Below, piece after piece: positions 1 through 15,230 of a DNA stretch of 64,000 bases (position 1 is its first letter; each line of letters begins with the position of its first letter). This DNA comes from an uncultured Actinomycetes bacterium (GTDB lineage: Bacteria; Actinomycetota; Actinomycetes; Nanopelagicales; Nanopelagicaceae). Where the stretch lies: contig CAILHY010000014.1 in assembly GCA_903834145.1 (NCBI GenBank), positions 33,032-97,031 of the forward strand. The letters are read 5' to 3'. Under the pieces are notes generated by a model that was not told the origin of the DNA, searched no databases, and worked only from the letters and a program-made list of their open reading frames with translations. A program made the translations under genes and the position numbers.

Positions 1-918
1 ATGACACACGGCACTGATGACGCATCCTTAGGACAATTGCGCACTGAACAAGTAGATGCGAAATTTCATCTACTTGATGTCATGTCTGTAGCTGAACTCT
101 TGCAAGCAATGAATGAAAGCGATTCTGAAGTTCCTAAAGCTGTTGCACGAGTTCTTCCAAATATTGAATCTGCAATCGAGGCAATAGTTGAACGAATGAT
201 TCAAGGCGGAAGGCTTATCTATATTGGAGCAGGAACATCAGGTCGACTTGGTGTTTTGGATGCTGCCGAATGTGGACCAACATTTTCTGTAACCGAAGAG
301 CAAGTTCTGGCATTTATTGCTGGTGGCGATCGAGCCATGAAGCACGCAGTTGAAGGCGCCGAAGATGATTTCGGTGCAGGGGGGCAAGAATTAGCTCAAG
401 CAAAATTGTCGGAAAAAGATTGCGTTGTTGGAATCGCCGCGAGTGGGCGTACCCCGTACGTGATGGGCGCGCTTGCCTATGCTAAGAAAATTGGAGCGCT
501 CACAATAAGTCTCACTTGTAACCCCAATTCAGAAATGTCGAAAAATGTAGATCACCCCATTGAAGTTGATTCAGGCCCTGAACTCCTTGCTGGATCTACA
601 CGTTTGAAATCCGGCACCGCTCAAAAACTTGTTCTGAATATGATTTCTACAATCTCGATGGTGCGCTTAGGAAAGACTTTTGGAAATCTCATGGTGGATT
701 TACAAGTGACCAATGAAAAACTCCAAGACCGAGCCATTCGGATTATTGAAAAGGCCACAGGAGCACCTCGATCTGAGGCGAAGAAAGCTCTCCTGGATTC
801 TGGGAATGAAGTGAAAGTCGCCATTTTGATGCTCCTATTAAGCCTGGATGCACCTGCGGCGAAAGATCGACTTCAGGGCGCATCTAATCGCGTACGCCAA
901 GCCCTTGCCACCGAATAG
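1..918 (+). CDS. murQ: N-acetylmuramic acid 6-phosphate etherase MurQ
   Basis: Cleaves the D-lactyl ether of MurNAc-6-P to give GlcNAc-6-P and D-lactate in the cytoplasm, the step that joins cell-wall MurNAc to amino-sugar catabolism. The 305-residue protein is the usual family length. It has the SIS-fold sugar-phosphate motif GAGTSGRLG at about residues 77-85. The two glutamates known to be catalytic in the family appear as E90 (in LDAAECGPTF) and E121 (in EGAEDD). The ATG is the first base of the window, so upstream promoter and partners cannot be seen. It is followed by 154 bases and then a peptide importer. With anmK, a dipeptide epimerase and a MurR-type regulator nearby, the setting supports wall recycling. 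Identification is firm. Confidence 0.95.
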   Translation: MTHGTDDASLGQLRTEQVDAKFHLLDVMSVAELLQAMNESDSEVPKAVARVLPNIESAIEAIVERMIQGGRLIYIGAGTSGRLGVLDAAECGPTFSVTEEQVLAFIAGGDRAMKHAVEGAEDDFGAGGQELAQAKLSEKDCVVGIAASGRTPYVMGALAYAKKIGALTISLTCNPNSEMSKNVDHPIEVDSGPELLAGSTRLKSGTAQKLVLNMISTISMVRLGKTFGNLMVDLQVTNEKLQDRAIRIIEKATGAPRSEAKKALLDSGNEVKVAILMLLLSLDAPAAKDRLQGASNRVRQALATE

Positions 919-961
919 GCGTTATTCACTCATTTGTAACAACTTCGTGACCGAAATCGGC

Positions 962-990
962 TTGACCTTCGCTACGTTTAAGGCGATGAT
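962..990 (+). promoter_or_regulatory. Candidate promoter for the peptide importer operon
   Basis: In the 154-base gap after murQ there is TTGACC (962-967), a 17-base spacer, then GATGAT (985-990), a 4/6 match to a -10 box. It lies about 80 bases before the GTG of the binding-protein gene. The rest of the gap holds a T-rich run near 1018 and an AAGGGGA ribosome site near 1059, but no recognised riboswitch. The box is weak, so this is tentative. Confidence 0.3.
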
Positions 991-1072
991 TTACACAGTC
1001 GGTGTCAATCGATGAAGTTTTTTTTCATGGCATTGTGTCCTCCATGGTTTCATCCTTGAAAGGGGAAATTAA

Positions 1073-2584
1073 GTGAAGTTAAGAAAGAAACTCGCAGTCG
1101 TTGGCGTTGCCACCGCACTGGTTGCAGGCGTGGTGCTCGTGGCACCTGCCCAGGCAGCAAGCAAGGATCTCGTTGTTGGTATCACTCTTGATATCGACAA
1201 GCTCGATCCACAAGGCGCAACAAGTTTCTCAACGGTTCGCGCCCTTGGATTGGTCTACGGATCACTTGTTGAAGTAGGTCCAAAGCTTCAGATTCGTCCA
1301 GGTCTAGCAACTTCTTGGGGCTTTAACGCAACAGGAACGCAGTTGCGCTTGCACCTTCGCAAGGGCGTCAAGTTCCAAGACGGAACACCATTTGATGCAC
1401 AGGATGTAAAGGCATCACTCGAGCGCATTCTTGATCCTGCTAGCAAGGCCGCGGCTCGTGCAAACATTGCAACGATCAAATCGATCACTGCATCTGGACT
1501 TGATGTCACTCTCAACTTGACCATTCCAAACGTTCCAATTCTCGCCGCACTTGATGGTGTGAACATGGCAATGCTTTCCAAGAAAGATATTGCAGCTGGA
1601 AACATTGGAAAGACTGTCAACGGAACCGGCCCATTCAAGTACGTTTCTTGGGATGCTGGTCAATCAGTCAAGTTGATCAAGAACCCAACATACTGGGGCG
1701 GGGCTCCAAAGTTAGATAGCGTGACATTCCGCGTTATCCCAACTGAAGCTTCAATTCTTTCAGCACTCAATGCAGGAACAGTTCAGTTTGCTGTTATCAC
1801 TTCACCACTCGTTGCAAAGCAAGTTGGTTCAAACTTGACCATGTACAAGACCCCTGGCCTTGCTTACATGGCACTTCAAATCAACGCTCGTCAAGCACCG
1901 TTTAATAACCTCAACGTCCGTTTGGCGCTTCAGTGTGCAATCAGTCGTGCAGAAGTTATTAAGACTGCAGCCTCCGGAGATGGATCCGTTATTGGACCAA
2001 TCACAAGCCCTGCATACAAGTCCGATCCAAAGGCTCGCCCATGTCCAGAAGCAGATATTGCGAAGGCTAAGGCGTATCTCACTGCTGGTGGATATCCAAA
2101 CGGATTAACAATCAAGACCATGGTTGCACCAACCCAACAAGCAACAATCGCTGGCATTGGCCAGAGCTTGAAGTCACAGTTGGCCAAGGCTGGAATCACT
2201 ATGGAACTTGATGTCGTTGATGATTCAACTTATGTTTCACGTTGGTTGGCTGCAGACTTCGGTACTGCAATTGCAAACAACGGTGGAAAAATTGATCCAG
2301 ATACGATGTACACCCGTTACTTCACATCAACAGGTAACTTGAACAAGGTTGCTGGATATTCATCTGCAACTCTTGATTCACTATTCATCCAGGGTAAGTC
2401 ATCTGGAAGCGTTACACAGCGCACAGCCATCTACAAGGCAATCTCAGCAGAACTTGAGAACAACGCCGCGTGGGTCTGGCTATTTGCGCCACTTGAGTAT
2501 CGCGTCACCGCTAAGAATGTAACTGGCTTCATCCCACTCGCTACAGGTTCACTTCTTGAACTTCGTAAGGTGGACATGAACTAA
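1073..2584 (+). CDS. Peptide ABC transporter substrate-binding protein (family 5)
   Basis: Extracytoplasmic solute-binding protein of the DppA/OppA class, which delivers peptides to the membrane permease. The 503-residue product has a clear signal peptide: KLRKK basic start, hydrophobic core, and a likely cut after AQA near residue 28. The mature part shows family-5 features such as LDPQGATSF near the N terminus and VKFQDGTPFDAQDVKASLERI near residue 100. The start is GTG with AAGGGGA about 8 bases upstream. The exact ligand cannot be read from sequence. Its place between murQ and anmK suggests murein peptides or muropeptides, as with MppA/OppA in E. coli, but general oligopeptides are possible. 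A hairpin follows the gene. Confidence 0.9.
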   Translation: MKLRKKLAVVGVATALVAGVVLVAPAQAASKDLVVGITLDIDKLDPQGATSFSTVRALGLVYGSLVEVGPKLQIRPGLATSWGFNATGTQLRLHLRKGVKFQDGTPFDAQDVKASLERILDPASKAAARANIATIKSITASGLDVTLNLTIPNVPILAALDGVNMAMLSKKDIAAGNIGKTVNGTGPFKYVSWDAGQSVKLIKNPTYWGGAPKLDSVTFRVIPTEASILSALNAGTVQFAVITSPLVAKQVGSNLTMYKTPGLAYMALQINARQAPFNNLNVRLALQCAISRAEVIKTAASGDGSVIGPITSPAYKSDPKARPCPEADIAKAKAYLTAGGYPNGLTIKTMVAPTQQATIAGIGQSLKSQLAKAGITMELDVVDDSTYVSRWLAADFGTAIANNGGKIDPDTMYTRYFTSTGNLNKVAGYSSATLDSLFIQGKSSGSVTQRTAIYKAISAELENNAAWVWLFAPLEYRVTAKNVTGFIPLATGSLLELRKVDMN

Positions 2585-2591
2585 TTGAACT

Positions 2592-2627: not shown

Positions 2628-2674
2628 TCTTCATTTCTCGTCCTTTTAAACAACTAACCAGGAGGCTCATCGCA

Positions 2675-3655
2675 ATGCAGGGTATAAGCACACTGCGGCG
2701 ATTGTTCTTCTCCTCAACGTTCATTCGCATTGCAAGTGCCATCACAACTCTTTTTGGAATTTCTATCTTTGTCTTTCTGGTACTTCGCGTTATTCCGGGT
2801 AACACCATTACCGGAGCATTTGGAATTGAAACAGGGGCACTGAATCCTCAGCAGATCGCAGAATTGCGTCATTATTATGGAATAGATCAACCCATGATCA
2901 TGCAATATTTTTCATGGATTAGTAGTTTTCTCAGCGGAAATTTTGGTTACTCCTATGCAACGGGACGTTCTGTTTTTGCTCTTACAAAAGTGGCCTTGCC
3001 CGTTACTATCGAGCTAGCCTTTATTGGAACGATATTAGGTGTCATCATGGGCATCGCGATCGGAATGTTTAGTGCGCGCAAACCCGGTAGTTTCCGCGAC
3101 TTCGGAGGGCAATTATTCGGCCTTCTCGCTCTGGCAATTCCCGGCTTCGTATTAAGTACTGCCATCGTTACGATCATGGCCAATAAATTTCACTATTTTC
3201 CCAACAGTCTTGAATATATGGCTCCATGGAAAGATCCTTGGATGAATTTCCAGCAGATGATGTTTCCTGGACTCGTCCTTGGCATCGCAGTGGCTGCCCC
3301 CGTAATGCGCACGACCAGATCAGCGCTCTTAGAGACTATTGATAAAGATTTCGTGCGCACAGCCTTAGGTAAAGGTGTGCCTGCTCGCAAAGTTCAATTC
3401 AAACATGTTCTGCGCAACTCATTAATTCCGATTGTGACTATGACCGGAATTCAATTTGGGTATTTGCTTGGCGGTGCAGTTATTGTGGAAAAGATCTTTG
3501 CCATGCCAGGCATGGGTCGACAAGTGCTCGAAGCGATCACCCGGAGAGAATATGCAACGGTGCAAAGTAGCGTCATGGTCTTTGCCATTATGTTCGTGAC
3601 GATCAATATATTGACCGATTTGGTGTATCGACGAGTAGATCCGCGGATCAAATAA
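2675..3655 (+). CDS. Peptide ABC transporter permease, DppB/OppB type
   Basis: Integral membrane permease forming half of the translocation channel of the peptide importer. It is a 326-residue protein with an N-terminal membrane segment (FGISIFVFLVLRVIPG) and the inner-membrane coupling region near RTALGKGVPARKVQFKHVLRNS, typical of the BPD permease family. I chose ATG 2675 because a strong AGGAGG lies at 2660-2665 with 9 bases of spacing. A longer in-frame TTG reading from 2585 would run through the hairpin and is unlikely. The stop overlaps the next ATG by one base (TAATG). The family is certain; the substrate is inferred from the operon. Confidence 0.92.
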   Translation: MQGISTLRRLFFSSTFIRIASAITTLFGISIFVFLVLRVIPGNTITGAFGIETGALNPQQIAELRHYYGIDQPMIMQYFSWISSFLSGNFGYSYATGRSVFALTKVALPVTIELAFIGTILGVIMGIAIGMFSARKPGSFRDFGGQLFGLLALAIPGFVLSTAIVTIMANKFHYFPNSLEYMAPWKDPWMNFQQMMFPGLVLGIAVAAPVMRTTRSALLETIDKDFVRTALGKGVPARKVQFKHVLRNSLIPIVTMTGIQFGYLLGGAVIVEKIFAMPGMGRQVLEAITRREYATVQSSVMVFAIMFVTINILTDLVYRRVDPRIK

Positions 3656-4515
3656 TGGCCAAGAAAAAGGAAGTCAGTCAACGGGGCGCAATCCACTATT
3701 ACCTACAAAGCACCAGTGGAATAGTCGGGGCAGTTCTATTGCTTTTTATGATCGTCGTTTCTATTTGTGCCGCCATGGGATGGCTCCCCCACAACCCGCT
3801 CGACCAAAATGTAGATAACTTGCTACATGCACCTTCAAGCAAGTTCTGGTTTGGCACTGACGATTTCGGAAGAGATGTCTTTTCCAGAACCCTCGATGGT
3901 ATGCGTCGATCTCTCACCGTTTCAATTACTGCGGTCTCACTCGCCGCCATCGTTGGAATCACGCTAGGAATCCTGGGTGGATACCTGGGCAAATGGTTTG
4001 ACATGGTTATCACTCGCGTTAGCGATGTCTTCTTCGCATTCCCGGCAATCTTGCTGGCCCTTGCGATCGTGGCCAGTCTTGGAAACGCTTGGTATGAAAC
4101 TTCTCTTGCCATCGCCATTGTTTACACGCCTATATTTATTCGAGTGGCGCGTGGACCAGTATTGAGCGTGAAAGAAATGGATTACATAAAAGTTTCTCGA
4201 ATACTTGGGTTTTCATCCCCGCGGATTTTAATCAAGCACATTTTGCCAAACGTGTTTGCTCCGATTGTTGTGCAGATAGCCCTTTCGTTGTCGTGGGCGA
4301 TTTTGACTGAATCTGGATTGAGCTTTCTTGGCCTCGGAACCCAACCACCAAATGCATCACTGGGGCTCATGGTTTCTGATGCACAGCCATTGGCGGCCTT
4401 TGCTTGGTGGACTCTTGTATTCCCATCACTTTTCATCACGATCGTAGTTGTTGGTCTCAATCTGGTGGGCGATGGACTGCGCGATGCGCTCGATCCTGCA
4501 AGGAGAAGTTCATGA
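3655..4515 (+). CDS. Peptide ABC transporter permease, DppC/OppC type
   Basis: Second permease of the peptide importer, 286 residues. The N-terminal membrane segment is followed by the OppC-type periplasmic motif FGTDDFGRDVFSRTLDG near residues 64-80. The EAA-like coupling loop lies around KVSRILGFSSPRILIKHILPN. The C terminus GDGLRDALDPARR is typical for DppC/OppC. It overlaps the previous stop by one base and the next gene by four (ATGA), so translation is probably coupled through the operon. Confidence 0.93.
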   Translation: MAKKKEVSQRGAIHYYLQSTSGIVGAVLLLFMIVVSICAAMGWLPHNPLDQNVDNLLHAPSSKFWFGTDDFGRDVFSRTLDGMRRSLTVSITAVSLAAIVGITLGILGGYLGKWFDMVITRVSDVFFAFPAILLALAIVASLGNAWYETSLAIAIVYTPIFIRVARGPVLSVKEMDYIKVSRILGFSSPRILIKHILPNVFAPIVVQIALSLSWAILTESGLSFLGLGTQPPNASLGLMVSDAQPLAAFAWWTLVFPSLFITIVVVGLNLVGDGLRDALDPARRSS

Positions 4516-5480
4516 GTCAACCTCTTCTTTCCGTAAGGGATCTATCCATTTCTACTGTGCAAGATCCCCGAATACTGGTCAACGATGTGAGTTTTGAAAT
4601 TCACGCAGGAGAAGCTGTCGGCGTTGTTGGTGAGAGCGGATCCGGTAAAACCCTTTCAGCCCTTTCGGTTCTGGGCTTATTGCCTCGGGGTGTCGAAGTT
4701 TCGGCAGGAACTATAGATTTTGACGGAAACAATTTGCTCTCAATGGATCAAGAGTCTCTGCGCAAATTGCGAGGACTAGATATCTCGATGGTGTATCAAG
4801 ATCCAATGACGGCGCTTAACCCCGTTATGAAAATTGGAAAGCAACTTTTGGAAGTCATTGAATCTCACGAAGAGCTCAACGAGAACTCACTCGATCGAGT
4901 ACGTCAAGCACTTGAAGAAGTAGGAATTCCAGATGTAAATCGTGCAATGGAAAGTTACCCGCACGAATTCTCTGGTGGCATGCGCCAGCGGGTTATGATC
5001 GCGATGGCACTGATTCTTTCTCCGAAGTTGCTTATTGCCGATGAGCCAACAACGGCACTCGACGTCACCATCCAGCAGCAAATACTTGCTCTCGTCGCCG
5101 AGGAGCGACAGAAGCGGAACATGTCGATGCTCTGGATCACTCACGATTTAGGTGTTGTTGCCAACCTAGTTGATCGTCTCGTCGTTATGTACGCAGGCAG
5201 AATTGTAGAATCGGGAAGTGTTAAAGAAATCTTTACCAATCCGCAGCACCCATATACTTCGGGGCTTCTCTCTTCTCTTCCCACCACGACGGATAAAACG
5301 CGAAAGAGATTGACATCGATCGCTGGGGTTCCTGAGAAACCTTGGCTAGTCGGTAATACATGTGCTTTTGCACCACGCTGTTCTTTCGCAACGCAAGAAT
5401 GTAGGAGCCAAGCGCCTCATCTAGTGGGAACTCTCGAAAAGAGTGTTTCCTGCTTTCACCCCGTTGGGAGGGCGCGATGA
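4512..5480 (+). CDS. Peptide ABC transporter ATPase, DppD/OppD type
   Basis: One of two ATPases powering the peptide importer. It is a 322-residue protein with Walker A GESGSGKT (residues 40-47), signature FSGGMRQR, Walker B LLIADEPTTALD, and a C-terminal oligopeptide-transporter cysteine region (CAFAPRCSFATQEC) of the type that binds an Fe-S cluster in OppD/DppD. ATG 4512 is preferred because AAGGAG lies just upstream and it overlaps the permease stop as ATGA. A longer in-frame reading from 4404 lies inside the permease gene. Confidence 0.93.
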   Translation: MSQPLLSVRDLSISTVQDPRILVNDVSFEIHAGEAVGVVGESGSGKTLSALSVLGLLPRGVEVSAGTIDFDGNNLLSMDQESLRKLRGLDISMVYQDPMTALNPVMKIGKQLLEVIESHEELNENSLDRVRQALEEVGIPDVNRAMESYPHEFSGGMRQRVMIAMALILSPKLLIADEPTTALDVTIQQQILALVAEERQKRNMSMLWITHDLGVVANLVDRLVVMYAGRIVESGSVKEIFTNPQHPYTSGLLSSLPTTTDKTRKRLTSIAGVPEKPWLVGNTCAFAPRCSFATQECRSQAPHLVGTLEKSVSCFHPVGRAR

Positions 5481-6430
5481 GCCTCAAGATCGCTGATGTT
5501 CGAAAGCAATACAAGATTCAAGCAACGGGAAGTCTGATTAATGCCCTCAACGGGATATCTGTCACCGTCGAGAAAGGGCAAACTCTCGGCATCGTTGGCG
5601 AAAGTGGCTGCGGAAAGTCCACACTGGCTCGTCTTATTTCAGGGCTGGAGCGCACGACATCGGGGGATATCTCGTGGTCTGATCAGGCGATGACAGATAA
5701 GGCGAGAAATCTCTTTCGAGCTCGTCGCTCCGTGGTCCAATTGGTTTTTCAGGATCCGTACTCATCTCTCAATCCACGGCAGAAGATAGGTGAGTCCATT
5801 TCCGAAATTTTGGAAGTGCACAAACTAGTTCCAGCAAAGGCCATCGATGCTCGCGTAACAGAGCTCCTCACGATTGTTGGTTTAGCGGATGATTTAAAAC
5901 ATCGCTATCCACATCAACTCTCGGGCGGACAGAGGCAACGTGTCAGTATTGCGCGTGCATTAGCTGCCGAACCACAACTTCTTATTTTAGATGAACCAGT
6001 TTCAGCCTTGGATGTATCAGTCCGTGCCGAAGTAATGAACTTACTTATTGACCTTCGTGAAAAATTTGGCTTAACATATATCTTCATTAGCCATGATTTA
6101 GCGATGATCCGCTATATCAGCGATGTCATCGCGGTGATGTACCTTGGAAAAATTGTAGAGTTTGGTACATGGGAGCAGATTATTGATCGCCCTCAACATC
6201 CGTATACGCAAGCTCTTATTGCAGCAATGCCAGATCACAGCATCATCGGCAACCCTGAGACACTTTCGAAAACACTCAAAGGCGAAGTTCCAGATCCTGC
6301 ACATCTTCCCACCGGTTGCTCTTTCCATGTACGTTGCCCGAAGGCGGTAGCGTCTTGCATGGTGACGGGTCCTGAACTTATTGAGATTTCACCCAATCAT
6401 TTAGTGGCATGTACGGAGGTAGAGCGATGA
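5477..6430 (+). CDS. Peptide ABC transporter ATPase, DppF/OppF type
   Basis: Second ATPase of the importer, 317 residues. It has Walker A GESGCGKST (41-49), Q-loop QDPYSSLNPRQ typical of OppF/DppF, signature LSGGQRQR, Walker B LLILDEPVSALD, and a C-terminal cysteine set (CSFHVRCPKAVASC). It overlaps both the previous gene and anmK by four bases (ATGA), so the kinase is the last gene of the same translational unit. That coupling is the strongest sign that this importer serves wall recycling. Confidence 0.93.
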   Translation: MSLKIADVRKQYKIQATGSLINALNGISVTVEKGQTLGIVGESGCGKSTLARLISGLERTTSGDISWSDQAMTDKARNLFRARRSVVQLVFQDPYSSLNPRQKIGESISEILEVHKLVPAKAIDARVTELLTIVGLADDLKHRYPHQLSGGQRQRVSIARALAAEPQLLILDEPVSALDVSVRAEVMNLLIDLREKFGLTYIFISHDLAMIRYISDVIAVMYLGKIVEFGTWEQIIDRPQHPYTQALIAAMPDHSIIGNPETLSKTLKGEVPDPAHLPTGCSFHVRCPKAVASCMVTGPELIEISPNHLVACTEVER

Positions 6431-7593
6431 AAATAATTGGCATGATTTCTGGTACTTCATATGATGGCATCGATGTTGCTTGTTGCGAATTTACGCAAGT
6501 AGATGATGTCATCGAGGTAGTTCAGCATGGATTCACCTCACTTGAGTACACACCCGAATTACATGACATGATTGCTGATTCAATGCCTCCCCGTCCGGTA
6601 ACGATGGAGCGCGTCTGCGTTCTGGATACTCACATTGGGCAAGCATTTTCTCAAGCTGCTCAAAAGGCGATCACTGATTTCGATTTCCAACCGGACCTTA
6701 TTGTTTCCCACGGTCAAACTCTCTTTCATTGGATCGATGCAGATCACAAAGCCCAAGGCACCTTGCAATTGGGAGAGGTTTCGTGGATCGCTGAAGAGAC
6801 AGGTGTACCTGTGCTCTCCAATGTTCGATCCCGCGATGTAGCTGCCGGTGGTCATGGAGCACCTCTCGTGAGTTTGCTGGATCAACTTCTATTAGGACAC
6901 TCTGAAAACCCAGAAGGTGCGCTCAATCTAGGCGGAATTTCAAATATCACCATTGCTGGCGCCAACCTTGCTCCATTGGCATATGACATTGGACCTGCAA
7001 ATGGGTTATTGGATTCGGCAATTTCTGCTTACAGCAAAGGTGAAAAATCCTACGATGAGGGCGGCAAGATCGCTGCCTCTGGCACAGTGGATCTCGCGCT
7101 ACTTGCTGAGTTTCTTGATGAACCGTATTACTCGCTACCGGCACCGAAATCCACTGGTAAAGAGCTATTCCACCTTCCATATTTGATCGAGAAGATCGGG
7201 CAAGTGCCTACGTGGAATATTGAAAATGTCATGGCGACTCTTTTAGAACTGACTGTCGAAACGGTTGCCCGTGAAGTTGAGAAATACCATTTAGCAAAGT
7301 TGTACATAGCTGGAGGTGGTTCCGCCAATCCAGTGATGATGGCGCGCTTACAGGAACGTTTAGGTTCCTGCGCAGTGCTCTCGATGGTGGAGTTAGGTAT
7401 TGATCCTCGGGCAAAAGAAGGTCTCACCTTTGCCTTGATTGGATTTCTATCCATGCACGGCTTAGCGGGTCAAGTGCCAAGTTGTACTGGCGCTCGCGGT
7501 GAGCGCATCCTTGGATCACTCACCCCCGGGAAAGATCCTCTGCGATTACCGCAACCAAGTACCGTCAAACCAATACGTGTAAGAGTTCTTTAA
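6427..7593 (+). CDS. anmK: Anhydro-N-acetylmuramic acid kinase AnmK
   Basis: Phosphorylates and hydrolyses 1,6-anhydro-MurNAc to MurNAc-6-P, the substrate of MurQ. The protein has 388 residues (E. coli AnmK 369). It shows the ATP motif GTSYDG (9-14), the metal/base region around D187 in AYDIGPANG, and a C-terminal GGGSANP nucleotide segment. ATG 6427 overlaps the transporter ATPase stop as ATGA and has GGAGG upstream; an earlier in-frame ATG at 6409 has no room for a ribosome site. Its 3' end overlaps the convergent acetyltransferase by four bases. 1,6-anhydro sugars come from lytic transglycosylases, so the cell salvages its own or other bacteria's wall. Confidence 0.95.
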   Translation: MKIIGMISGTSYDGIDVACCEFTQVDDVIEVVQHGFTSLEYTPELHDMIADSMPPRPVTMERVCVLDTHIGQAFSQAAQKAITDFDFQPDLIVSHGQTLFHWIDADHKAQGTLQLGEVSWIAEETGVPVLSNVRSRDVAAGGHGAPLVSLLDQLLLGHSENPEGALNLGGISNITIAGANLAPLAYDIGPANGLLDSAISAYSKGEKSYDEGGKIAASGTVDLALLAEFLDEPYYSLPAPKSTGKELFHLPYLIEKIGQVPTWNIENVMATLLELTVETVAREVEKYHLAKLYIAGGGSANPVMMARLQERLGSCAVLSMVELGIDPRAKEGLTFALIGFLSMHGLAGQVPSCTGARGERILGSLTPGKDPLRLPQPSTVKPIRVRVL

Positions 7594-8093
7594 CCCTTCG
7601 ATGTTTGCAGCATCTGGATCTCTGGAATCTTCCAGCGTTCATCAATGCGCTCAATTCCCGTTACAGCAAAACCTTCTTTTTCGTATAGCCCGAGTGCGCT
7701 GGAGTTGCTCTTGAAGACCCAGAGCGTTATTTCCGAAAAACCTTTGACATGCAATCGTTCAATTGCATTCTTGAGCAATGATTTCCCAATTCCTCTGCCA
7801 GCAAGGTCAGGATGGACATATAGTGAAAACAAATGTCCACGAAGGGGATCCTGGATATCTTGGCCGATGCGTGCAACTCCCACTACGGAGTGCTCTACAA
7901 CTGCCACCAAGGTTTCTCGTTCAGGATGTGGTCCGAGTGCAGATATCCAAAGAGCATGCGCTGCATCTAGTGTCATTGCATCGCGAACATCCTCTGGTAG
8001 CAAATCTCGATACGAGGTAAGCCAGCAGGCACGAAAGGTTGCGACGACGGCATCTAGATCAGTTGCTATCCCGTTGCGAATAATGATTTCCAC
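7590..8093 (-). CDS. GNAT-family N-acetyltransferase
   Basis: Acyl-CoA-dependent acetyltransferase of 167 residues. The acetyl-CoA site is visible as VHPDLAGRGIGKSLL (R/Q-x-x-G-x-G/A motif) near residues 93-107. It is followed by the usual beta-strand YEKEGF near the C terminus. The target cannot be read from sequence; candidates include an amine, an amino acid or an amino sugar. It is the only minus-strand gene in the wall-salvage island, convergent with anmK (4-base overlap) and 12 bases from the divergent epimerase start, so its promoter must lie inside or against the epimerase gene. Confidence 0.85.
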   Translation of the reverse strand: MEIIIRNGIATDLDAVVATFRACWLTSYRDLLPEDVRDAMTLDAAHALWISALGPHPERETLVAVVEHSVVGVARIGQDIQDPLRGHLFSLYVHPDLAGRGIGKSLLKNAIERLHVKGFSEITLWVFKSNSSALGLYEKEGFAVTGIERIDERWKIPEIQMLQTSKG

Positions 8094-8105: not shown

Positions 8106-9134
8106 ATGACACGAATCGTTAACGCCTTCTCACGTGTAAGCCCGCGTCCTTTGAGAAATACATTCTCGACAGCTCTTCGAAGTGTGAGCGAACTCGAGGT
8201 CATTGCATATTGCATCGAAACAGATGATGGCATTCAAGCGTGGGGAGAAAGTGTTGAAACTCCCGCCATCACTGGAGATACCAACGTTGCGATACAAAAT
8301 GCACTCGCGAAGGAAATTCCGATGGCGCTTATCGGAACCGAATTTCATAGCGCTCGTGCCACCTGGAACTCGGCAATTAGCCCACTTGATGTTGTCGCGA
8401 GTGCCAAGGCTGCAGTTGATCTAGCCCTGTATGACCTTGAAGCGCAATTGGCCGAAGTTTCAATGAATACGCTCTTGGGGTGCAAGGTGGAAAGCGTTGC
8501 CACCGATGTAACTGTCCCGATTGCGTCCTTGTCGGAAATTGAATCACTTGTTTCCATCCGCTTGGCAGAAGGTTTTTCCAGTTATAAAGTGAAGTTAGGA
8601 ATGGAGGACCTCACTCTCTCGTTAGAGAAGTTGCTTCTTATACGCTCACTTATTGGCAATGACAGCGGATTGCGAGTAGATGCAAACCAAGCATGGAGCG
8701 TGGAGCATTCCATAGAATTCTTGCAAAGTAGCAGTGACCTGAATATTGAATATCTGGAGCAACCCATAATTTCGGCAAATAAAAGAGGGTTAGCGATAAT
8801 TTCTAAGGCTTCCGACACGAAAATCATGGCAGATGAATCATGTTTCACAATGGGAGACATGAACGAATTGATTGACCTGGGAAGCGCTGATCTCGTCAAT
8901 CTTAAAGTGCTAAAAAGCGGTGGTATTACCCCGCTATTGGAGATCGCTCAACGAGCAGAACAAGCCGGAATGGGAATCTCGATTGGCTCAATGATGGAAG
9001 GTGACCGCGGGGTTACCGTGGCTTCGATTCTTGCTGGAGCCCTTGCACCCACTCTTGTGCATGACCTCGATGCGGCTTGGTGGGCTAAGGAAAGCACGAT
9101 TAAATACTCAGATGGGAGAGTGTGGCTTTTATGA
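8106..9134 (+). CDS. Dipeptide epimerase (L-Ala-D/L-Glu type), enolase superfamily
   Basis: Likely interconverts L-Ala-D-Glu and L-Ala-L-Glu so the murein dipeptide can be broken down (YcjG/YkfB family). All muconate-lactonising-type active-site residues are present: KVK lysines K161 and K163, metal ligands D192 (VDANQAW), E218 (LEQP) and D243 (MADES), and K267 (NLKVLK). These fall at almost the same numbers as in the B. subtilis enzyme. A D-L-D motif at 320-322 near the end matches the DxD that binds the dipeptide amino group in this subfamily. Length is 342 residues. The stop overlaps the next gene's start as ATGA. Other dipeptide epimerase specificities exist, so L-Ala-D-Glu is inferred from motif plus neighbours. 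Confidence 0.88.
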   Translation: MTRIVNAFSRVSPRPLRNTFSTALRSVSELEVIAYCIETDDGIQAWGESVETPAITGDTNVAIQNALAKEIPMALIGTEFHSARATWNSAISPLDVVASAKAAVDLALYDLEAQLAEVSMNTLLGCKVESVATDVTVPIASLSEIESLVSIRLAEGFSSYKVKLGMEDLTLSLEKLLLIRSLIGNDSGLRVDANQAWSVEHSIEFLQSSSDLNIEYLEQPIISANKRGLAIISKASDTKIMADESCFTMGDMNELIDLGSADLVNLKVLKSGGITPLLEIAQRAEQAGMGISIGSMMEGDRGVTVASILAGALAPTLVHDLDAAWWAKESTIKYSDGRVWLL

Positions 9135-10168
9135 ATAGTGAATTGACATCTCTCATTGAGTCCGGAATTCCTGGATTAGTTTTTGCGAGCTCTCATGAAG
9201 GCAGACGAAGTACCACATCAATCGGAAATCGTTCCAGCCTAGATCTAGCTTCGCCATTACTTATGACTAACGAGACTTCATTTGATCTTGGCTCGTTGAC
9301 AAAGATTATAATTACAACCTCGGCTCTTATGGATTTAGTACACGAGAAGAAGATATCTCTAGAAGATAAAATTTCTAAATATATCTCACAGTGGAACATA
9401 TCTGAGAAATCTGAAATCACGATCCGAGAACTTCTTCAACATCGTGGGGGATTGTGGGAGTGGCGTCCGCTCTATATTTCTTTGCAGGATCCAAGTGAAG
9501 TTGTTGATTACATCGCGAGATTGCCATTGCGTTATCCCGTGAATCAGAACAGGCACTACTCGGATCTTGGCTTCATAACTTTAGGTAACGTTGTGGCAAG
9601 AATCTTGGGAACTGGTTTGGAAAGTTTGGAGTTCGCACATACTAAGTTTGGCGCGCCAGATGATAAAAGTGATGTTGCAGCGACTTCCCGAGGTGATCGG
9701 TTGGAAAGGGAAATGGTGGGATCCCATGCGCCCTATCCTGTTCCAGAAAAAGTCGAGGACTTCAATCAGTGGCGCACCCACGTACTCAGTGGCGAAGTTA
9801 ATGATGGCAACTCCTTTCATCTCATGGGCTCAGTTTCTGGACATGCTGGCCTGTTCTCCACCGCAGAGGATCTTTTAGATTTTGGCGAAAGAATCGAGCG
9901 ACATCCTCAATTTGAAATCTTCACAAGGAGCGGAGCTGATGCGGACGCTCATCTTGGTTTTCGCAGTTGGGTTGATACCTTCGAAGGGTGCGCAGATAGG
10001 TTCTATGGACATACAGGATTCCCCGGGACCGTTCTTGGGATCTCATCTCGACATAAGGCGGTAGCAACTCTGCTCACCAACCGCCTCCATGTGGAGGGAG
10101 CGCCTAGGCCAACGGAGGAGCTGTGGCGCCCAATTTTGCGCTCATTTCACCAGAGTCTGCATCGATAA
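9131..10168 (+). CDS. Serine hydrolase, beta-lactamase/class C PBP fold
   Basis: Serine hydrolase of 345 residues with the penicillin-recognising triad: S55-L-T-K58 (SxxK), Y143-S-D145 (YxN-like) and H294-T-G296. ATG 9131 is chosen because it overlaps the epimerase stop (ATGA) and has GGGAGAG about 10 bases upstream; an in-frame GTG at 9122 sits on that site. No signal peptide is seen, so it probably acts in the cytoplasm. This makes antibiotic resistance unlikely and peptide or muropeptide trimming more likely. B. subtilis carries a beta-lactamase-fold gene (ybbE/amlB) in its MurNAc recycling cluster, a useful parallel. The exact reaction (D-aminopeptidase, carboxypeptidase or esterase) is unknown. 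Confidence 0.85.
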   Translation: MNSELTSLIESGIPGLVFASSHEGRRSTTSIGNRSSLDLASPLLMTNETSFDLGSLTKIIITTSALMDLVHEKKISLEDKISKYISQWNISEKSEITIRELLQHRGGLWEWRPLYISLQDPSEVVDYIARLPLRYPVNQNRHYSDLGFITLGNVVARILGTGLESLEFAHTKFGAPDDKSDVAATSRGDRLEREMVGSHAPYPVPEKVEDFNQWRTHVLSGEVNDGNSFHLMGSVSGHAGLFSTAEDLLDFGERIERHPQFEIFTRSGADADAHLGFRSWVDTFEGCADRFYGHTGFPGTVLGISSRHKAVATLLTNRLHVEGAPRPTEELWRPILRSFHQSLHR

Positions 10169-10185
10169 ATCATCCTCAAAAAGGG

Positions 10186-10214
10186 TTGACGGATACCGCC
10201 AGTTTGGCAATAAT
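10186..10214 (+). promoter_or_regulatory. Near-consensus promoter of the murR-sugar importer operon
   Basis: TTGACG (10186-10191), a 17-base spacer and AATAAT (10209-10214) form one of the best sigma-70-type promoters in the window. It lies 18 bases after the hydrolase stop and gives a leader of about 50 bases before ATG 10270. Confidence 0.75.
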
Positions 10215-10221
10215 TTTCGCC
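10206..10221 (+). promoter_or_regulatory. Candidate operator overlapping the -10 box
   Basis: The 16-base stretch GGCAATAATTTTCGCC is an imperfect palindrome (12 of 16 positions match its reverse complement) and covers the -10 box. A repressor here would block transcription, and the next gene encodes a MurR/RpiR-type regulator, so autoregulation is possible. Palindromy is seen; the binding protein is inferred. Confidence 0.35.
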
Positions 10222-10269
10222 TACAAGAGATTTGTCTGAAGGATTTTTTCACCATCAAAGGAGCCGGCA

Positions 10270-11238
10270 ATGGCAAAGAAGCCCCCTGCCCTACAAGTTG
10301 TCGGTAAAAACTATCGAGACCTCCTGGGTGAAATTGGCAACTCTTTTCCATCTTTCCACGCAAGTGAAGCCGCTATAGCGCACACCGTTCTTGATAATCC
10401 CGAACTTGTGGCCACGATGAATATCTCACAACTTGCACTCGCGAGTTCTACCTCTGTCGCATCAGTCGTGAGATTTAGCAAAGCTGTGGGATTTAAGGGC
10501 TATCCAGAGTTTCGTATGGCGCTCGTGAGTGAGTTAAGTCGCTTGGCGCACACTGGAATTGAAACCTCCGAGCTCGACGGCGGAATTACTGTCAATGATT
10601 CCGCTGCAGATGTTATTCGCAAGATCGCACAAGCCGACGCACGTGCCATTCAATCAACTGCCGAAAGACTTGATGTTGCAAGTTTTACCGCGACAATCGA
10701 TGCTTGGGAAAAAGCAAAAATTGTTGGTGTTTTCGGTGTTGCTTCAGGAGCCTACGTAGCTATGGATTTACAACTAAAACTTAATCGCCTCGGCAAGAAT
10801 TCTGTTGCCTGGAAAGATGCACACATGGCTCTTACTTCCATTGCTCTACTTGGCAAAGGCGATGTTCTCGTTGCCATTAGCCATAGTGGCACCACTGTTG
10901 ATGTAGTTGACGTCATGACCGAATTCAAAGCAAGAGGCGTAAAAATTATTCTCATCACAAATACGCTACGCAGTCCATCTACTGCTATTGCTGATCTTGT
11001 TCTCTATACATCTGCTCGGGAAACCACTTTCCGAAGCGGAGCGACCGCCAGTCGCATTGCTCAACTAACAGTGGTTGATTGTCTCTGCGTTGCATTAGCG
11101 CAGAGAAACTGGAGCGCAACTAAAAGCGCTTTAGATCTTTCAAGAGAGGCAATCGGAAGCCGAACTGGAAAGAAAGTGCACGATGAAGGAATGCATGCAA
11201 GTAGTACCCCAACCCGCTCTCGAGGAGGAAATAAGTGA
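10270..11238 (+). CDS. MurR/RpiR-family transcriptional regulator
   Basis: Sugar-phosphate-responsive regulator of 322 residues. An RpiR-type helix-turn-helix lies at about residues 20-85 (MNISQLALASSTSVASVVRFSK). A SIS domain lies at about 125-260, with VAISHSGTTVDVVDV as the phosphosugar-binding loop. A polar tail of about 40 residues follows. In E. coli MurR the ligand is MurNAc-6-P, the product of AnmK and substrate of MurQ; that ligand fits here but is not proven. AAAGGAG precedes ATG 10270. The stop overlaps the GTG of the sugar-binding protein (GTGA), so the regulator is cotranscribed with the importer it probably controls. Confidence 0.9.
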   Translation: MAKKPPALQVVGKNYRDLLGEIGNSFPSFHASEAAIAHTVLDNPELVATMNISQLALASSTSVASVVRFSKAVGFKGYPEFRMALVSELSRLAHTGIETSELDGGITVNDSAADVIRKIAQADARAIQSTAERLDVASFTATIDAWEKAKIVGVFGVASGAYVAMDLQLKLNRLGKNSVAWKDAHMALTSIALLGKGDVLVAISHSGTTVDVVDVMTEFKARGVKIILITNTLRSPSTAIADLVLYTSARETTFRSGATASRIAQLTVVDCLCVALAQRNWSATKSALDLSREAIGSRTGKKVHDEGMHASSTPTRSRGGNK

Positions 11239-12518
11239 GAAAGACACAACGCCGCGGTCGCGGCTTGGTGGCCGCGATTCTTGCAGCCAGTGCGATAGCT
11301 GTTCCAGTAATGGCAGCGATTCCTGCACATGCAGCAACAGAACTTTCGTTCTGGAGCTGGCGCCCTGAAGATAAAGTCTTCTATGAAGCCCAAGCTGCTG
11401 ATTTCTTGGCTGCTACAGGTATCGCAGTTAAGTTCACTCCATATGTTGCCACTGAGTACAACGCAACGCTGGCAACCGCTCTTACCGCAGGTAAGGGTCC
11501 AGATGTAATGCAGATCCGTGCTTATGGTGGAATGGCGAACCTTTCCGATGCTGGCAATTTCTTGCCATTAACATCGAAGTTGGTTCCAGCCCTTGCAAAG
11601 ATTCCTGCCGGAACTCTTGCTGGTGCTCAGGGATACACCGACAAGCACCAATTCGGGCTCCCTTATGCCACTTCCGTTTTGGGAGTTATGTATAACCCAG
11701 CACTCCTTAAGAAAGCTGGCATTAAAGCCCTTCCAACAACATGGGATTCATTCCTTGGCGTTCTCTCACGTGTGAAGTCCGCAGGAATCATGCCTCTTGG
11801 AAATGGAACAGGCTATGCACCAGGACTTGAACAACTCTGGGGCGCAGTAGGTCCAGCGTTCTACGGTGGAACTGCTTTCTACAAGGATGTAGTTGCTGGC
11901 AACCGCACCTTCACGGATAAGAACTTCGTAGCATCACTTCAAGCCGTTAAGGACCTTGTTGCATATATGCCAGCAGGAGCCGAAGGTTTGGATTACAACA
12001 CTGCACGTGGCCTCTTCGCTAACGAAAAAGCCGCGTTCTATATCGGTGGAAACTATGAAATCTCCTATTTCCGCAGCTTGAATCCATCACTCAGCGTTGG
12101 CTGGATTCCTGCACCTTCAGCATCCGCAGGATCACCTCGCTATGTCACTAACTGGGCAGATGGTGCTTTTGCAATTAATGCGAAGACCACTCATAAGACT
12201 GAAGCACTCAAGTTCCTGAACTTCTTGGCAAGCAAAGACTTTAATCAAGCAGCAGCTGATCAGCTTGGTTGGATTCCTACCGTTTCCGGAATCAAGGTAA
12301 CTGATCCTGCAGTGATCGCAATGCAACGTGCAATCCCTACTTTGGGAACGCCATTCCTATCACTCGTTGGATTCCGTTATGGAACCCCAACAAGTTCATC
12401 CATTATGCAACCAGGATTCCAAAAGGTTGCAGCCGGTACGAAAACTTCTGCTGATTTGGCAAAAGATATTCAAGCTGGTGTTGCATCTTGGTATAAGCCA
12501 CTAACAGGTAAGGCCTAA
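11235..12518 (+). CDS. Sugar ABC transporter substrate-binding protein (family 1)
   Basis: Exported carbohydrate-binding protein of 427 residues. The signal peptide has an RKTQRRGR start and a hydrophobic core, with a probable cut after AHA near residue 33. The mature N terminus TELSFWSWRPED and the motif GKGPDVMQIRAYGG are typical of family-1 sugar-binding proteins such as MalE/UgpB relatives. AGGAGG lies 6 bases before the GTG start. Context (regulator, kinase, anmK, murQ) suggests GlcNAc, MurNAc or a wall disaccharide as ligand; this is inference. A strong terminator follows the gene. Confidence 0.9.
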   Translation: MRKTQRRGRGLVAAILAASAIAVPVMAAIPAHAATELSFWSWRPEDKVFYEAQAADFLAATGIAVKFTPYVATEYNATLATALTAGKGPDVMQIRAYGGMANLSDAGNFLPLTSKLVPALAKIPAGTLAGAQGYTDKHQFGLPYATSVLGVMYNPALLKKAGIKALPTTWDSFLGVLSRVKSAGIMPLGNGTGYAPGLEQLWGAVGPAFYGGTAFYKDVVAGNRTFTDKNFVASLQAVKDLVAYMPAGAEGLDYNTARGLFANEKAAFYIGGNYEISYFRSLNPSLSVGWIPAPSASAGSPRYVTNWADGAFAINAKTTHKTEALKFLNFLASKDFNQAAADQLGWIPTVSGIKVTDPAVIAMQRAIPTLGTPFLSLVGFRYGTPTSSSIMQPGFQKVAAGTKTSADLAKDIQAGVASWYKPLTGKA

Positions 12519-12527
12519 GAAATAGGG

Positions 12528-12565
12528 CTGGGCGCAGGGGTAAAACTCTGCGCCCAGTTTTTCTT
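12528..12565 (+). terminator. Rho-independent terminator after the sugar-binding protein gene
   Basis: CTGGGCGCAG (12528-12537) and CTGCGCCCAG (12548-12557) form a perfect 10-base stem with a 10-base loop, followed directly by TTTTTCTT. It lies inside the operon, before the permeases. Partial read-through would give more binding protein than membrane subunits. Confidence 0.85.
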
Positions 12566-12603
12566 AACATCACCACTAATTCTAAATAATCTAGAGGAGC
12601 GCT

Positions 12604-13524
12604 GTGTCCAAGACTGGGTTGCAAAGAGAGCAGAGGAAATTCACTTTTCTGCTCCTAGCCCCAGGCTTGTTGACCATTATTATTTTCACCAGTATCCCCG
12701 CGCTCACCACTTTGAGTTACGCCTTCTTTCATTGGAAAGGTTTTCAACGAGGCTCCTTTGCTGGCTTTGAGAATTTCCATCGTCTCTTTAGTTTTCCATT
12801 CAAGGATCAATTCCTTATGGCGCTGCGTCACAACCTCCTAGTCTTTGTCGGGATTTTTACCTTGCAGACCGCCGCGGGAATACTTATCGCCTACAGTCTT
12901 TATCGGATGATCAAGGGTCAACGATTCTTTAGAACGGTGACTTTTCTCCCTGTGATTTTTTCTCTGGTCATTGTTGGATATATGTGGCAAGCACTTCTGG
13001 ATCCTTTTTATGGACCAGTAAATAATATTCTTCATAGCATCGGGCTCGATTCGCTCGCCCGCACGTGGCTCGGAAGCACCAGCACTGCACTGCCTACTTT
13101 GGTTTTCATCAACCTATGGCGCTGGGTTGGCTTTCCGGCAATTATTTTTCTCTCCGGGTTTAACGCAATTAATCAGGAATACCTAGAGGCCGCCAGAATT
13201 GATGGCGCTTCTGAGGGTCAAATATTTCGTAAAGTTATGTTCCCTTTACTTGCTCCATCTATGACCATCGTCGCCATTCTTACTTTTATTGGCGCCTTCG
13301 AATGGTTTGACCTGCCGTATGTGCTTGGAGGTTCCAGTGGAGGACCAGCGGGTGCAACGGACACGTTGGCGCTGATGTTCTATCGCCTCTCATTCGGATC
13401 CGTTGATTCTGGTGCCAATGAGATCGGAATTGGTTCAGCTCTCGGCGTTCTTATCTTCTCCATAGTCGGAGTCGGCGCAGCATTTGGCTCTAAATACTTA
13501 CGAAGCCGCGAGGTAGATGTGTGA
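12604..13524 (+). CDS. Sugar ABC transporter permease (MalF/UgpA type)
   Basis: Inner-membrane permease of 306 residues, with a first membrane segment near LLLAPGLLTIIIFTSIPAL and the EAA loop EAARIDGASEGQIFRKVMFP near residues 196-215, which contacts the ATPase. The start is GTG with AGAGGAG just upstream and short spacing. It overlaps the second permease by four bases (GTGA). Usual family length. Confidence 0.92.
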   Translation: MSKTGLQREQRKFTFLLLAPGLLTIIIFTSIPALTTLSYAFFHWKGFQRGSFAGFENFHRLFSFPFKDQFLMALRHNLLVFVGIFTLQTAAGILIAYSLYRMIKGQRFFRTVTFLPVIFSLVIVGYMWQALLDPFYGPVNNILHSIGLDSLARTWLGSTSTALPTLVFINLWRWVGFPAIIFLSGFNAINQEYLEAARIDGASEGQIFRKVMFPLLAPSMTIVAILTFIGAFEWFDLPYVLGGSSGGPAGATDTLALMFYRLSFGSVDSGANEIGIGSALGVLIFSIVGVGAAFGSKYLRSREVDV

Positions 13525-14348
13525 TTAAAGCGCTTTCGTCACGAATCTTCTTCCGATCAATTTTGATTTTCAATGCGGTAATGGTTTTGGTGCCCGTTCT
13601 CTTCCTCATTAACTCATCGCTTCGTGAAACTAATGATTTTGCGCGCAATCCGATCAAGTTGGCCACCTCGCCACATTGGGCGAATTTCAGTAGCGTCTGG
13701 GCCAACGGCGCCTTCGCAACCTATTTAAAGAATTCTCTTATTATTACCGTTGGATCAACCATCCTGATTCTGACACTTGCTCTTGGTGCAGGTTTTGTTC
13801 TCGGGCGATACACCTTTAAAGGTCAAAACTTCATCATGGGATTCATTCTTTCTGGAATGTTGGTCCCTGCGAAATTAGCGATCTTGCCTCTTTTTATTCA
13901 ACTGAAATGGATGCATCTCCTTGATTCACATCTTGGATTAATCTTGGTTTACACATCAGGTGCGCTACCAGCCGCAATATTTATCATGAGTGGTTTCTTC
14001 AGATCGCTGCCTGCTGATCTAGATAGCGCAGCTCGAATAGATGGTGCTTCAGAATTTCAGCTACTACGAAGAGTCTTGGCACCACTAGTTCGTCCTGGGT
14101 TATCGATTGTTGCTATTTACTCGGCAATCCCCATCTGGAATGACTTCTTCTTGCCTTTAGTCTTTCTACAAACGCCCGAGAAGAAGACCATCATGCAAGG
14201 TCTTACAGTTTTCTTTGGCGAGTATTCATCCCAGTGGGGAATCATCTTCGCGGGGCTGACTTTGGCAGCACTTCCGCTCATCGTTCTTTATTTAATTCTT
14301 TCCGAGCAATTTATTAAAGGCCTTACAGCCGGCGCAGTGAAAGGGTAA
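13521..14348 (+). CDS. Sugar ABC transporter permease (MalG/UgpE type)
   Basis: Second permease of the sugar importer, 275 residues, with about six membrane segments and the EAA loop DSAARIDGASEFQLLRRVLAP near residues 169-190. GTG start overlaps the previous stop. No ATPase gene follows: the next gene is a kinase. As in other actinobacterial and Gram-positive CUT1 systems, a shared MsmK/MsiK-type ATPase encoded elsewhere probably energises it. Confidence 0.92.
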   Translation: MIKALSSRIFFRSILIFNAVMVLVPVLFLINSSLRETNDFARNPIKLATSPHWANFSSVWANGAFATYLKNSLIITVGSTILILTLALGAGFVLGRYTFKGQNFIMGFILSGMLVPAKLAILPLFIQLKWMHLLDSHLGLILVYTSGALPAAIFIMSGFFRSLPADLDSAARIDGASEFQLLRRVLAPLVRPGLSIVAIYSAIPIWNDFFLPLVFLQTPEKKTIMQGLTVFFGEYSSQWGIIFAGLTLAALPLIVLYLILSEQFIKGLTAGAVKG

Positions 14349-14351
14349 AGA

Positions 14352-15230
14352 ATGTTGTCGCTAGGAATTGATGCAGGTGCTTCATCCACAAAATGGGCAC
14401 TTTTGAACGACAAGGGAGTCTTTCGAGAAGGTTCCCTCTTGGCAATGGATGGACACATAAACAAAGCGCCGTCTCGAGCTCGGATGATCCATGTGCTCGA
14501 AGAAATTGTTGCACTAGCCATGCCTGAAAAAATCACCTCAATATATGCAGGAATTACAGGTATCGCTGAAACCGAATCAGGTTCGGCAGCAATAAAGTCA
14601 ATCTTTACAAGCATTTTTGGGGATATCCCAATTGATTTGGTATCAGATATTGAACTTGGTTATCGCGCAAATTTTGAACCTGGTGAAGGGATTTTCCTTT
14701 ACGCCGGAACGGGATCGATCGCAATGTATATAGACGAAAACGAAAAGATCTTTCGGGCAGGTGGCTGGGGATATTTGCTCGGTGATGAAGGCGCCGGCTA
14801 TTGGATCGGGCGAGAAGCAATACGCCAAGTGCTCACGACACTTGAAAGTGGAACGTCATTTACATCGGATTCGTTTGAGTCAGAGATCTTGGGATCTATC
14901 CATTGCAAAGACTGGAAAGACATTAAGTCATTTGTATATTCCGACGACAGGGCAAAGATCGCTGAACTTTCACGGCTCGTTGCCTCTCTCGCGATCCATG
15001 GTGATGCAAAAGCGCTAAAGATCCTCATAAGTGCAGGGAGCGCCCTCGCAAATTTAGTCTGGAGACTTGAAGAAATTGTCAGGAAAGGCAACTTGCGCGT
15101 GATTTTTGCTGGGGGACTCAATGCACCAGAGAGTCCACTTTCGAGCGAACTCATCAAACAGATAGCTCGCCCCGTAGAGGTTTCTCACGTGAGAGCAGCA
15201 AATCGGGCTGCAGAGTTAGCTAGGAAGTGA
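14352..15230 (+). CDS. GlcNAc/MurNAc-type sugar kinase (BadF/BcrA ATPase family)
   Basis: ASKHA-fold kinase of 292 residues. The phosphate-1 loop is LGIDAGASSTKWAL (residues 4-17), and GTGSIAMY with GGWGYLLGDEGAGYWIG near residues 120-155 is the hallmark of N-acetylglucosamine kinases and of MurK, which phosphorylates both MurNAc and GlcNAc. It starts three bases after the permease stop with AAAGGG upstream, so it likely phosphorylates the imported sugar. If MurNAc is accepted, it makes MurNAc-6-P for MurQ and for the MurR-type regulator. The 3' end overlaps mutY by 15 bases. Specificity cannot be settled from sequence. Confidence 0.85.
   Translation: MLSLGIDAGASSTKWALLNDKGVFREGSLLAMDGHINKAPSRARMIHVLEEIVALAMPEKITSIYAGITGIAETESGSAAIKSIFTSIFGDIPIDLVSDIELGYRANFEPGEGIFLYAGTGSIAMYIDENEKIFRAGGWGYLLGDEGAGYWIGREAIRQVLTTLESGTSFTSDSFESEILGSIHCKDWKDIKSFVYSDDRAKIAELSRLVASLAIHGDAKALKILISAGSALANLVWRLEEIVRKGNLRVIFAGGLNAPESPLSSELIKQIARPVEVSHVRAANRAAELARK

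Follow-up and report, generated by a model that had tools for sequence, protein, structure and literature searches.

We analysed a 64,000-nucleotide stretch of DNA from an uncultured member of the Nanopelagicaceae (assembly GCA_903834145.1, contig CAILHY010000014.1, positions 33,032 to 97,031 of the forward strand; this whole stretch is called the window), whose first 15,230 bases carry genes predicted to take up and break down fragments of bacterial cell wall. The Nanopelagicaceae are planktonic freshwater actinobacteria, and the host genome is 1.75 Mb in size and 98.6% complete. Window proteins were scanned with Pfam and NCBIfam and compared by profile with solved structures; both confirmed the genes named at 1-15230 in an initial annotation, which had overlooked a GNAT acetyltransferase gene at 7590-8093. 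The genes fall into two cassettes. The peptide cassette has the order SBP5-DppBCDF-anmK-GNAT-(epimerase)-serine hydrolase, SBP1-MalFG-murK makes up the sugar cassette, and either one is accompanied by the etherase gene murQ and the regulator gene murR.

All features are on the forward strand unless stated otherwise, and coordinates are those of the window. The N-acetylmuramic acid (MurNAc) 6-phosphate etherase gene murQ (1-918) is complete, its ATG beginning at window base 1. It scores 382.8 bits with TIGR00274 (cut-off 302), and its product is 49% identical to E. coli MurQ, with E90 and E121 aligned to E83 and E114 of the latter, which we take to be the catalytic residues. Upstream of the peptide cassette (962-1027), a promoter-like TTGACC-N17-GATGAT (962-990) is followed by an operator-like TGAAGTTTTTTTTCA (1013-1027). 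SBP5 (1073-2584; PF00496, 258 bits) encodes the substrate-binding protein of a Dpp-type importer, with a Sec-type signal, and is separated from dppB by a 16-bp hairpin resembling a terminator or attenuator (2592-2627; -34.7 kcal/mol, z -8.3); terminator-like sites overall around this hairpin were not above shuffled sequence. The importer is built from DppB/C-type permeases and two separate ATPases. For the permease gene dppB (2675-3655; PF00528), whose open reading frame opens at 2585, the start was picked from several relatives of 326 amino acids, and copies of the permease gene dppC (3655-4515) at the same position in family loci are 62-98% identical. The ATPase gene dppD (4512-5480) matches OppD/DppD as its best NCBIfam models, under the equivalog cut-offs, and is followed by the second ATPase gene, dppF (5477-6430; PF00005, PF08352). 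The start of anmK (6427-7593) overlaps the end of dppF by 4 bp (ATGA). It encodes a kinase for anhydro-MurNAc (anhydroMurNAc), with 498.6 bits to NF007146 (cut-off 440) and 355.6 to PF03702 (cut-off 24), and D187 in the DxGPxN motif is invariant (12/12). The GNAT gene (7590-8093, reverse strand; PF00583, 64 bits) lies antisense within the operon; it overlaps the stop of anmK and is 12 bases away from where the epimerase starts. Its position between anmK and the epimerase or hydrolase is conserved across family loci. The dipeptide epimerase (8106-9134) belongs to the enolase superfamily and is likely an L-Ala-D/L-Glu epimerase; such an enzyme, 1jpm, is its best solved relative (E 7e-50), and the KxK, D, E, D, K and DxD motifs align at positions that presumably have the catalytic roles known from such epimerases. 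The cassette closes with a serine beta-lactamase-fold hydrolase (9122-10168; SxxK 58-61, YSD 146-148, HTG 297-299), proposed to be a muramyl-L-alanine amidase.

Upstream of murR (10186-10251), a promoter-like TTGACG-N17-AATAAT (10186-10214) and an operator-like TGAAGGATTTTTTCA (10237-10251) are found. The gene itself (10270-11238) encodes an RpiR-family regulator with a helix-turn-helix (PF01418) and a SIS domain (PF01380), which matches E. coli MurR at 32%. SBP1 (11235-12518) encodes the family-1 sugar-binding protein of the second importer, again with a Sec-type signal, and has distant matches to various sugar-binding proteins, amino-sugar and chitin-sugar types included. A hairpin with a T run, also terminator- or attenuator-like (12526-12559; -32.7 kcal/mol, z -7.9), lies between it and the MalF-type permease gene (12604-13524), which was recognised in the NCBIfam scan. 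Each binding-protein gene is thus followed by a strong hairpin, a common means of producing more binding protein than permease. The MalG-type permease gene (13521-14348), whose position is conserved in relatives, is followed by a gene for a MurK-type kinase of MurNAc and N-acetylglucosamine (GlcNAc) (14352-15230), which has a BadF/BcrA domain (PF01869, 73.7 bits, cut-off 31.5). Its best solved relative is the MurNAc/GlcNAc kinase 8zo3 (E 2.7e-21), which is distant, and the NagK equivalog cut-off was not reached. The core gene mutY (15216-16067, reverse strand) forms the right-hand boundary of the island, within the order clpC - 185-amino-acid gene - mutY/radA.

We compared this locus with a family sample of 91 genomes, the host's own included, and with a broader sample of 150 genomes. 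The initial annotation had described a single wall-salvage island, but it was found that the island is two cassettes which occur jointly or separately. Both occur together in the window and in genomes G020, G005, G009 and G036, and also in G026 up to a contig end in malF. In the stretches read, the peptide cassette stands alone in G002, G014, G015, G017, G039 and G068, while the sugar cassette stands alone in G029, G043, G047, G054 and G084. The two are on separate contigs in G064 and interrupted by contig ends in G077. Conservation of gene order in relatives had been set beforehand as a test, and it held in modular form, the order being retained across so many genomes that the grouping is beyond chance.

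The cassettes also differ in their partners. Within the family sample, murQ is over the cut-off in 19/91 genomes and anmK in 14/91, all 14 being among those 19. Dpp genes adjoin anmK in each of these 14 genomes (14/14), and the murQ genomes without anmK all carry SBP1-MalFG-murK (5/5). From these counts, each kinase appears to be paired with its own importer, and both would lead to MurNAc-6-phosphate, the substrate of MurQ. The cassettes of G005, G026 and G039 have no epimerase gene but retain the importer, anmK, murQ and the hydrolase. It is anmK, more than the epimerase, that goes with the "peptide" importer, and for this reason the importer probably imports fragments containing anhydroMurNAc, not bare peptides. 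In the 150-genome sample, MurQ reaches at least 271 bits in 22/22 genomes with a full anmK (Fisher p 1e-17) and is over the cut-off in 20/22 (Fisher p 2e-16); G115, whose match has only 25 bits over 70 residues, was left out of this tally. Comparative genomics thus gives good support to the predicted locus for wall-fragment uptake and catabolism, and this part of the initial annotation stands, while its single island gives way to two separable cassettes.

Beyond the family, species genomes were searched with the AnmK alignment and at least 79 loci were kept. Among the loci listed with at least 44% AnmK identity, Dpp/SBP5 genes (SBP5, DppB or DppC) lie within 8 kb in 33/36 and the hydrolase in 28/36, from Nanopelagicaceae to Microbacterium; the importer-less loci are L063, whose contig begins inside dppF, L091 and L094. 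Below 44% identity, an importer is near anmK in 1 of the 43 loci listed, which are mostly Burkholderiales and hence not independent. With or without murQ, anmK sits between dppC and dppD in Sporichthyaceae (L080), Phycicoccus (L088), Microbacterium (L096) and the mostly Acidimicrobiaceae loci L082-L085, L093 and L100, and L182 and L183 show the same arrangement. In L092, murQ is between dppC and dppD, with nagA - anmK - NagB-II-like SIS gene farther along, and in L093 MurQ is fused to a NagA-type domain. Since anmK and murQ are placed between its permease and ATPase genes outside the family, this importer probably serves anhydroMurNAc-containing fragments specifically. In a tree of 39 AnmK rows, the 17 Nanopelagicaceae copies (L089 being the contig of G039) form one clade (97/96), nested in a clade of 32 rows (100/99) which is all actinobacterial except for L084, a metagenome-assembled genome (MAG). 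The anmK cassette of L084, a MAG labelled Acidobacteria, groups with the Acidimicrobiaceae copies, by transfer or by a binning error. The sole importer-bearing locus among the 43 distant ones listed, L104 from a Bacillota MAG, has the order SBP5-dppBC-murQ-anmK-hydrolase, and one of its frames contains a NanE (N-acetylmannosamine-6-phosphate epimerase) domain.

We consider it probable that the Dpp-type importer with anmK imports anhydroMurNAc-peptides, that the sugar importer with murK imports MurNAc, and that both routes meet at MurNAc-6-phosphate and a shared MurQ. SBP5-DppBCDF would carry the anhydroMurNAc-peptide into the cell, where the serine hydrolase may cut the lactyl-L-Ala amide. By the known functions of their families, AnmK would then form MurNAc-6-phosphate and the epimerase, where retained, would convert L-Ala-D-Glu to L-Ala-L-Glu for ordinary peptidases. 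Free MurNAc would be imported by SBP1-MalFG and then phosphorylated by MurK. MurQ would yield GlcNAc-6-phosphate and lactate, and NagA and NagB-II from elsewhere in the genome would lead on to fructose-6-phosphate. A MurR-type repressor, presumably bound to a 15-bp palindrome at both promoters, would be released by a muramyl phosphate. More tentatively, and with somewhat less than even confidence, we propose that a dedicated anhydromuropeptide importer arose in Actinobacteria and in a few bacteria besides, a Dpp-type ATP-binding cassette (ABC) system for amino-blocked, sugar-capped ligands with anmK, murQ and a cytoplasmic beta-lactamase-fold amidase in the operon, that would do the work of AmpG and of YejBEF-YepA; with the MurNAc cassette as an interchangeable second one controlled by the same operator, one cell could harvest both forms of muramic acid.

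The initial annotation had noted that no NagZ, NagA, NagB or amidase gene is in the window and had asked for them elsewhere in the genome. For the amidase this is doubtful, as the hydrolase is likely the amidase of the locus, judging from its sequence. It is 31% identical over 330 amino acids to E. coli YfeW/PBP4B, which is encoded with murQP, and scores under the PBP4B equivalog cut-off (109 vs 385 bits); its structure model (predicted local distance difference test, pLDDT, 95.6) has a serine beta-lactamase fold with SxxK, YSx and HxG motifs. Its N-terminus is not signal-like by hydropathy, and we therefore place it in the cytoplasm. AmiE, encoded in the B. subtilis murQRP operon, is a MurNAc-L-Ala amidase according to the cited part of PMC5061867. 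Searches of the host genome for GH3 (NagZ, PF00933), NamZ and Amidase_2 (AmpD, PF01510) returned 0 matches, control searches with PF00933 and PF01510 giving matches in 10/14 and 6/14 known genomes. The hydrolase is the best amidase candidate because Amidase_2 is without a match, and fragments bearing GlcNAc would need some other enzyme because GH3 and NamZ are without one; a complete AmpD/NagZ-type muropeptide recycling set was not found in this genome. The search was more successful for nagA and nagB, adjacent genes at C20 (L049 11595-13571) having NagA (204, cut-off 226) and NagB-II (210, cut-off 430) as best matches, under the cut-offs. Likewise, the epimerase scores 134.8 vs 500 (NF041118) and 108.8 vs 343 (NF011708), and the regulator 119.3 vs 408 bits for the MurR equivalog.

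The same mechanism could serve to recycle the cell's own wall rather than to feed on that of others. The host encodes an MltG of its own and gives two matches to NlpC/P60, and three Gram-positive model bacteria recycle their own MurNAc, as stated in the section of PMC5061867 cited here. On the other hand, besides the patchy presence of murQ noted above, an empty site (clpC - 185-amino-acid gene - mutY; radA in G003) is found in 7/20 same-genus loci (G003, G004, G009, G010, G013, G016 and G018). In 6/20 loci murQ follows the 185-amino-acid gene (the host's own, G002, G005, G015, G017 and G020), as it does in G014, read from L035, and the other 6 of the 20 loci do not cover the insertion point. 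Patchy presence together with empty sites suggests a dispensable nutrient trait, and we hold recycling of the own wall to be possible but somewhat doubtful as the role of the locus. G009 (L036 and L157), a MAG with 4% contamination, has the empty site on one contig and the island on another.

For the regulation, a dyad search upstream of SBP5, murR and murQ found a 15-bp palindrome, TGAA-N6-TTTCA. Counting distinct loci, it lies upstream of SBP5 in 9/17 and of murR in 14/20, together 23/37 promoters, and a TTGAC box is 49-52 bases upstream of it in 22/23 of the operator-bearing promoters. The geometry of promoter and operator is identical upstream of SBP5 and murR in the window. Judged by how often the loose motif occurs in 17 family loci, fewer than 0.01 of these 150-base stretches would be expected to contain it. 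The form TGAANNNWTTTTTCA has 4 copies genome-wide and 0 in the reversed control, and the other two lie within open frames. Among the SBP5 loci without the site are L036, L040 and L068, which have a site-bearing murR directly upstream. The palindrome might be the site of a regulator other than MurR, the pairing with MurR resting on position and murQ having a copy upstream in 0/21 loci. The sites are, however, concentrated at the murR and SBP5 promoters, with none upstream of the epimerase (0/15), the hydrolase (0/18), anmK (0/19), GNAT (0/20), malF (0/6) or murK (0/6); the single sites upstream of SBP1 (1/7) and dppB (1/12) are both from L036, where SBP1 heads its own unit with no murR ahead (the sets other than those of SBP5 and murR count one genome twice). 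Another regulator is thus unlikely, and the case for an operator, bound presumably by MurR, is made by position and conservation.

As regards the ligand of SBP5, a profile search of solved structures ranked AgaA (6hlx) first (208 bits), followed by 5u4o and, third, GsiB (178), with lower scores for DppA (~134 bits) and MppA (~88 bits). AgaA, the nearest solved relative, presumably binds a sugar-amino acid opine. In DppA, D436 binds the amino group of the ligand and R383 its carboxylate, according to the part of PMC12136057 cited. In the D436 column, SBP5 and 26 homologues from the cassettes carry G or A, and none of them has an Arg in the R383 column. By alignment, G405 of SBP5 falls in the D436 column and K406 in that of the MppA Asp, and all Nanopelagicaceae rows (12/12) have G in the former and K or R in the next. 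The acidic amino-group anchor of DppA and MppA thus appears to be lost, which is compatible with an anhydroMurNAc-peptide ligand because its L-Ala has no free alpha-amino group, and which would also fit other non-peptide ligands. No lipobox Cys was seen in either binding protein among the Nanopelagicaceae copies examined, whose signals are of the Sec type. Lgt is encoded in the host genome all the same, and the SBP5 copies of L080, L087, L088 and L096 carry a lipobox.

These data bear on the proposal that the Dpp-type importer takes up stem peptides only, as E. coli MppA-Opp does, with anmK merely co-regulated and the sugars entering via the second importer. An epimerase and a hydrolase would suit peptide use, many SBP_bac_5 proteins are peptide binders, and in E. 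coli the ycjG gene is close to mpaA and mppA. Nevertheless, the epimerase is gone from three cassettes that keep the importer, anmK, murQ and the hydrolase, G002, G014, G015 and G068 keep anmK and murQ with no second importer at the locus, and the amino-group anchor is lost, which makes stem peptides alone an improbable substrate. Import of free anhydroMurNAc, with other tasks for the epimerase, hydrolase and GNAT protein, would agree with anmK as the tightest partner of the importer and with the presumed opine ligand of AgaA (6hlx), yet it is very unlikely, since the hydrolase kept near anmK in 28 of the 36 closer loci, and also in L104, would be useless with a free sugar.

Several observations weigh against import of anhydroMurNAc-peptides under MurR control. 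Among the eight other-family anmK genomes of the 150-genome sample, five (G106, G109, G126, G143, G145) have no importer within ~8 kb and three (G097, G130, G147) have one nearby, and L091 and L094 lack one near anmK. L083, L093, L099, L100 and L104 have an Asp in the column adjoining that of the anchor, and Arg is likewise missing from the DppA R383 column in OppA and MppA, both peptide binders. A beta-lactamase fold is compatible with amidase, esterase or DD-peptidase activity alike; the epimerase, kinase, hydrolase, MurR, NagA and NagB-II are all under the NCBIfam equivalog cut-offs; and, with no GH3 or NamZ match in this genome, those enzymes could not open disaccharide fragments capped by GlcNAc. 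Since the operator was not found upstream of murQ, this gene may lie outside the regulon. The motif count of the window is not above chance either, with 2 vs 1.5 expected for the loose form and 3 vs 2.1 with one mismatch allowed.

When compared with known systems, the locus combines familiar parts in a different way. E. coli imports anhydromuropeptides through AmpG. The E. coli murR / murQ-murP-yfeW divergon, as described in part in PMC5061867, shares murQ, a MurR-type regulator, a PBP4B-type beta-lactamase-fold protein and the pathway to GlcNAc-6-phosphate, with anmK, nagA and nagB encoded elsewhere; it has a phosphotransferase system (PTS) importer, MurP, whereas here two ABC importers have their own kinases, the hydrolase is without a signal-like N-terminus and anmK is inside the importer operon. 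In B. subtilis murQ-murR-murP-amiE-nagZ-ybbC, according to the portion of PMC5061867 cited, an etherase, a regulator, an importer and a MurNAc-L-Ala amidase are similarly grouped, the amidase being putative here; there, however, the importer is a PTS and AmiE and NagZ are extracellular, while the host genome has no GH3 or NamZ match. YejBEF-YepA of Alphaproteobacteria, demonstrated where ours is predicted, is a peptide-family ABC importer with a wall-specific binding protein that replaces AmpG; in the sections cited of PMC9790009 it differs in having a single ATPase gene, a binding-protein gene outside the operon and neither anmK nor murQ described in the operon, and it belongs to another phylum. 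E. coli MppA-OppBCDF with YcjG and MpaA shares an SBP_bac_5 importer and an L-Ala-D/L-Glu epimerase for wall peptides, but MppA is annotated for murein tripeptide and SBP5 has K in place of its Asp. The S. coelicolor cluster SCO4305-4308 is an actinobacterial murQ cluster with a MurR-type regulator, and no importer is named for it in the cited part of PMC5061867.

MurQ-type muramic acid salvage and muropeptide import by a peptide-family ABC system (YejBEF-YepA, in the part of PMC9790009 cited) are thus already known, and what is new here is the parts, genetic make-up and taxon of a wall-fragment locus conserved well beyond the genus, with a predicted mechanism. A 2026 mycobacterial preprint speaks, in the passage cited, of MurNAc uptake "by an unknown transporter" (PMC13041923). 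The cassettes supply concrete candidate importers for MurNAc and anhydroMurNAc fragments in Actinomycetota, along with a regulator and a predicted operator. The peptide cassette is also carried by cultured hosts, Microbacterium, Phycicoccus and Nakamurella among them. If the prediction is true, shed bacterial wall material would be a nutrient in lake plankton for some, not most, of the sampled family members. Farther along the window, a second enolase-superfamily protein (36501-37487) amid menaquinone-type genes resembles MenC by eye, not a second dipeptide epimerase.

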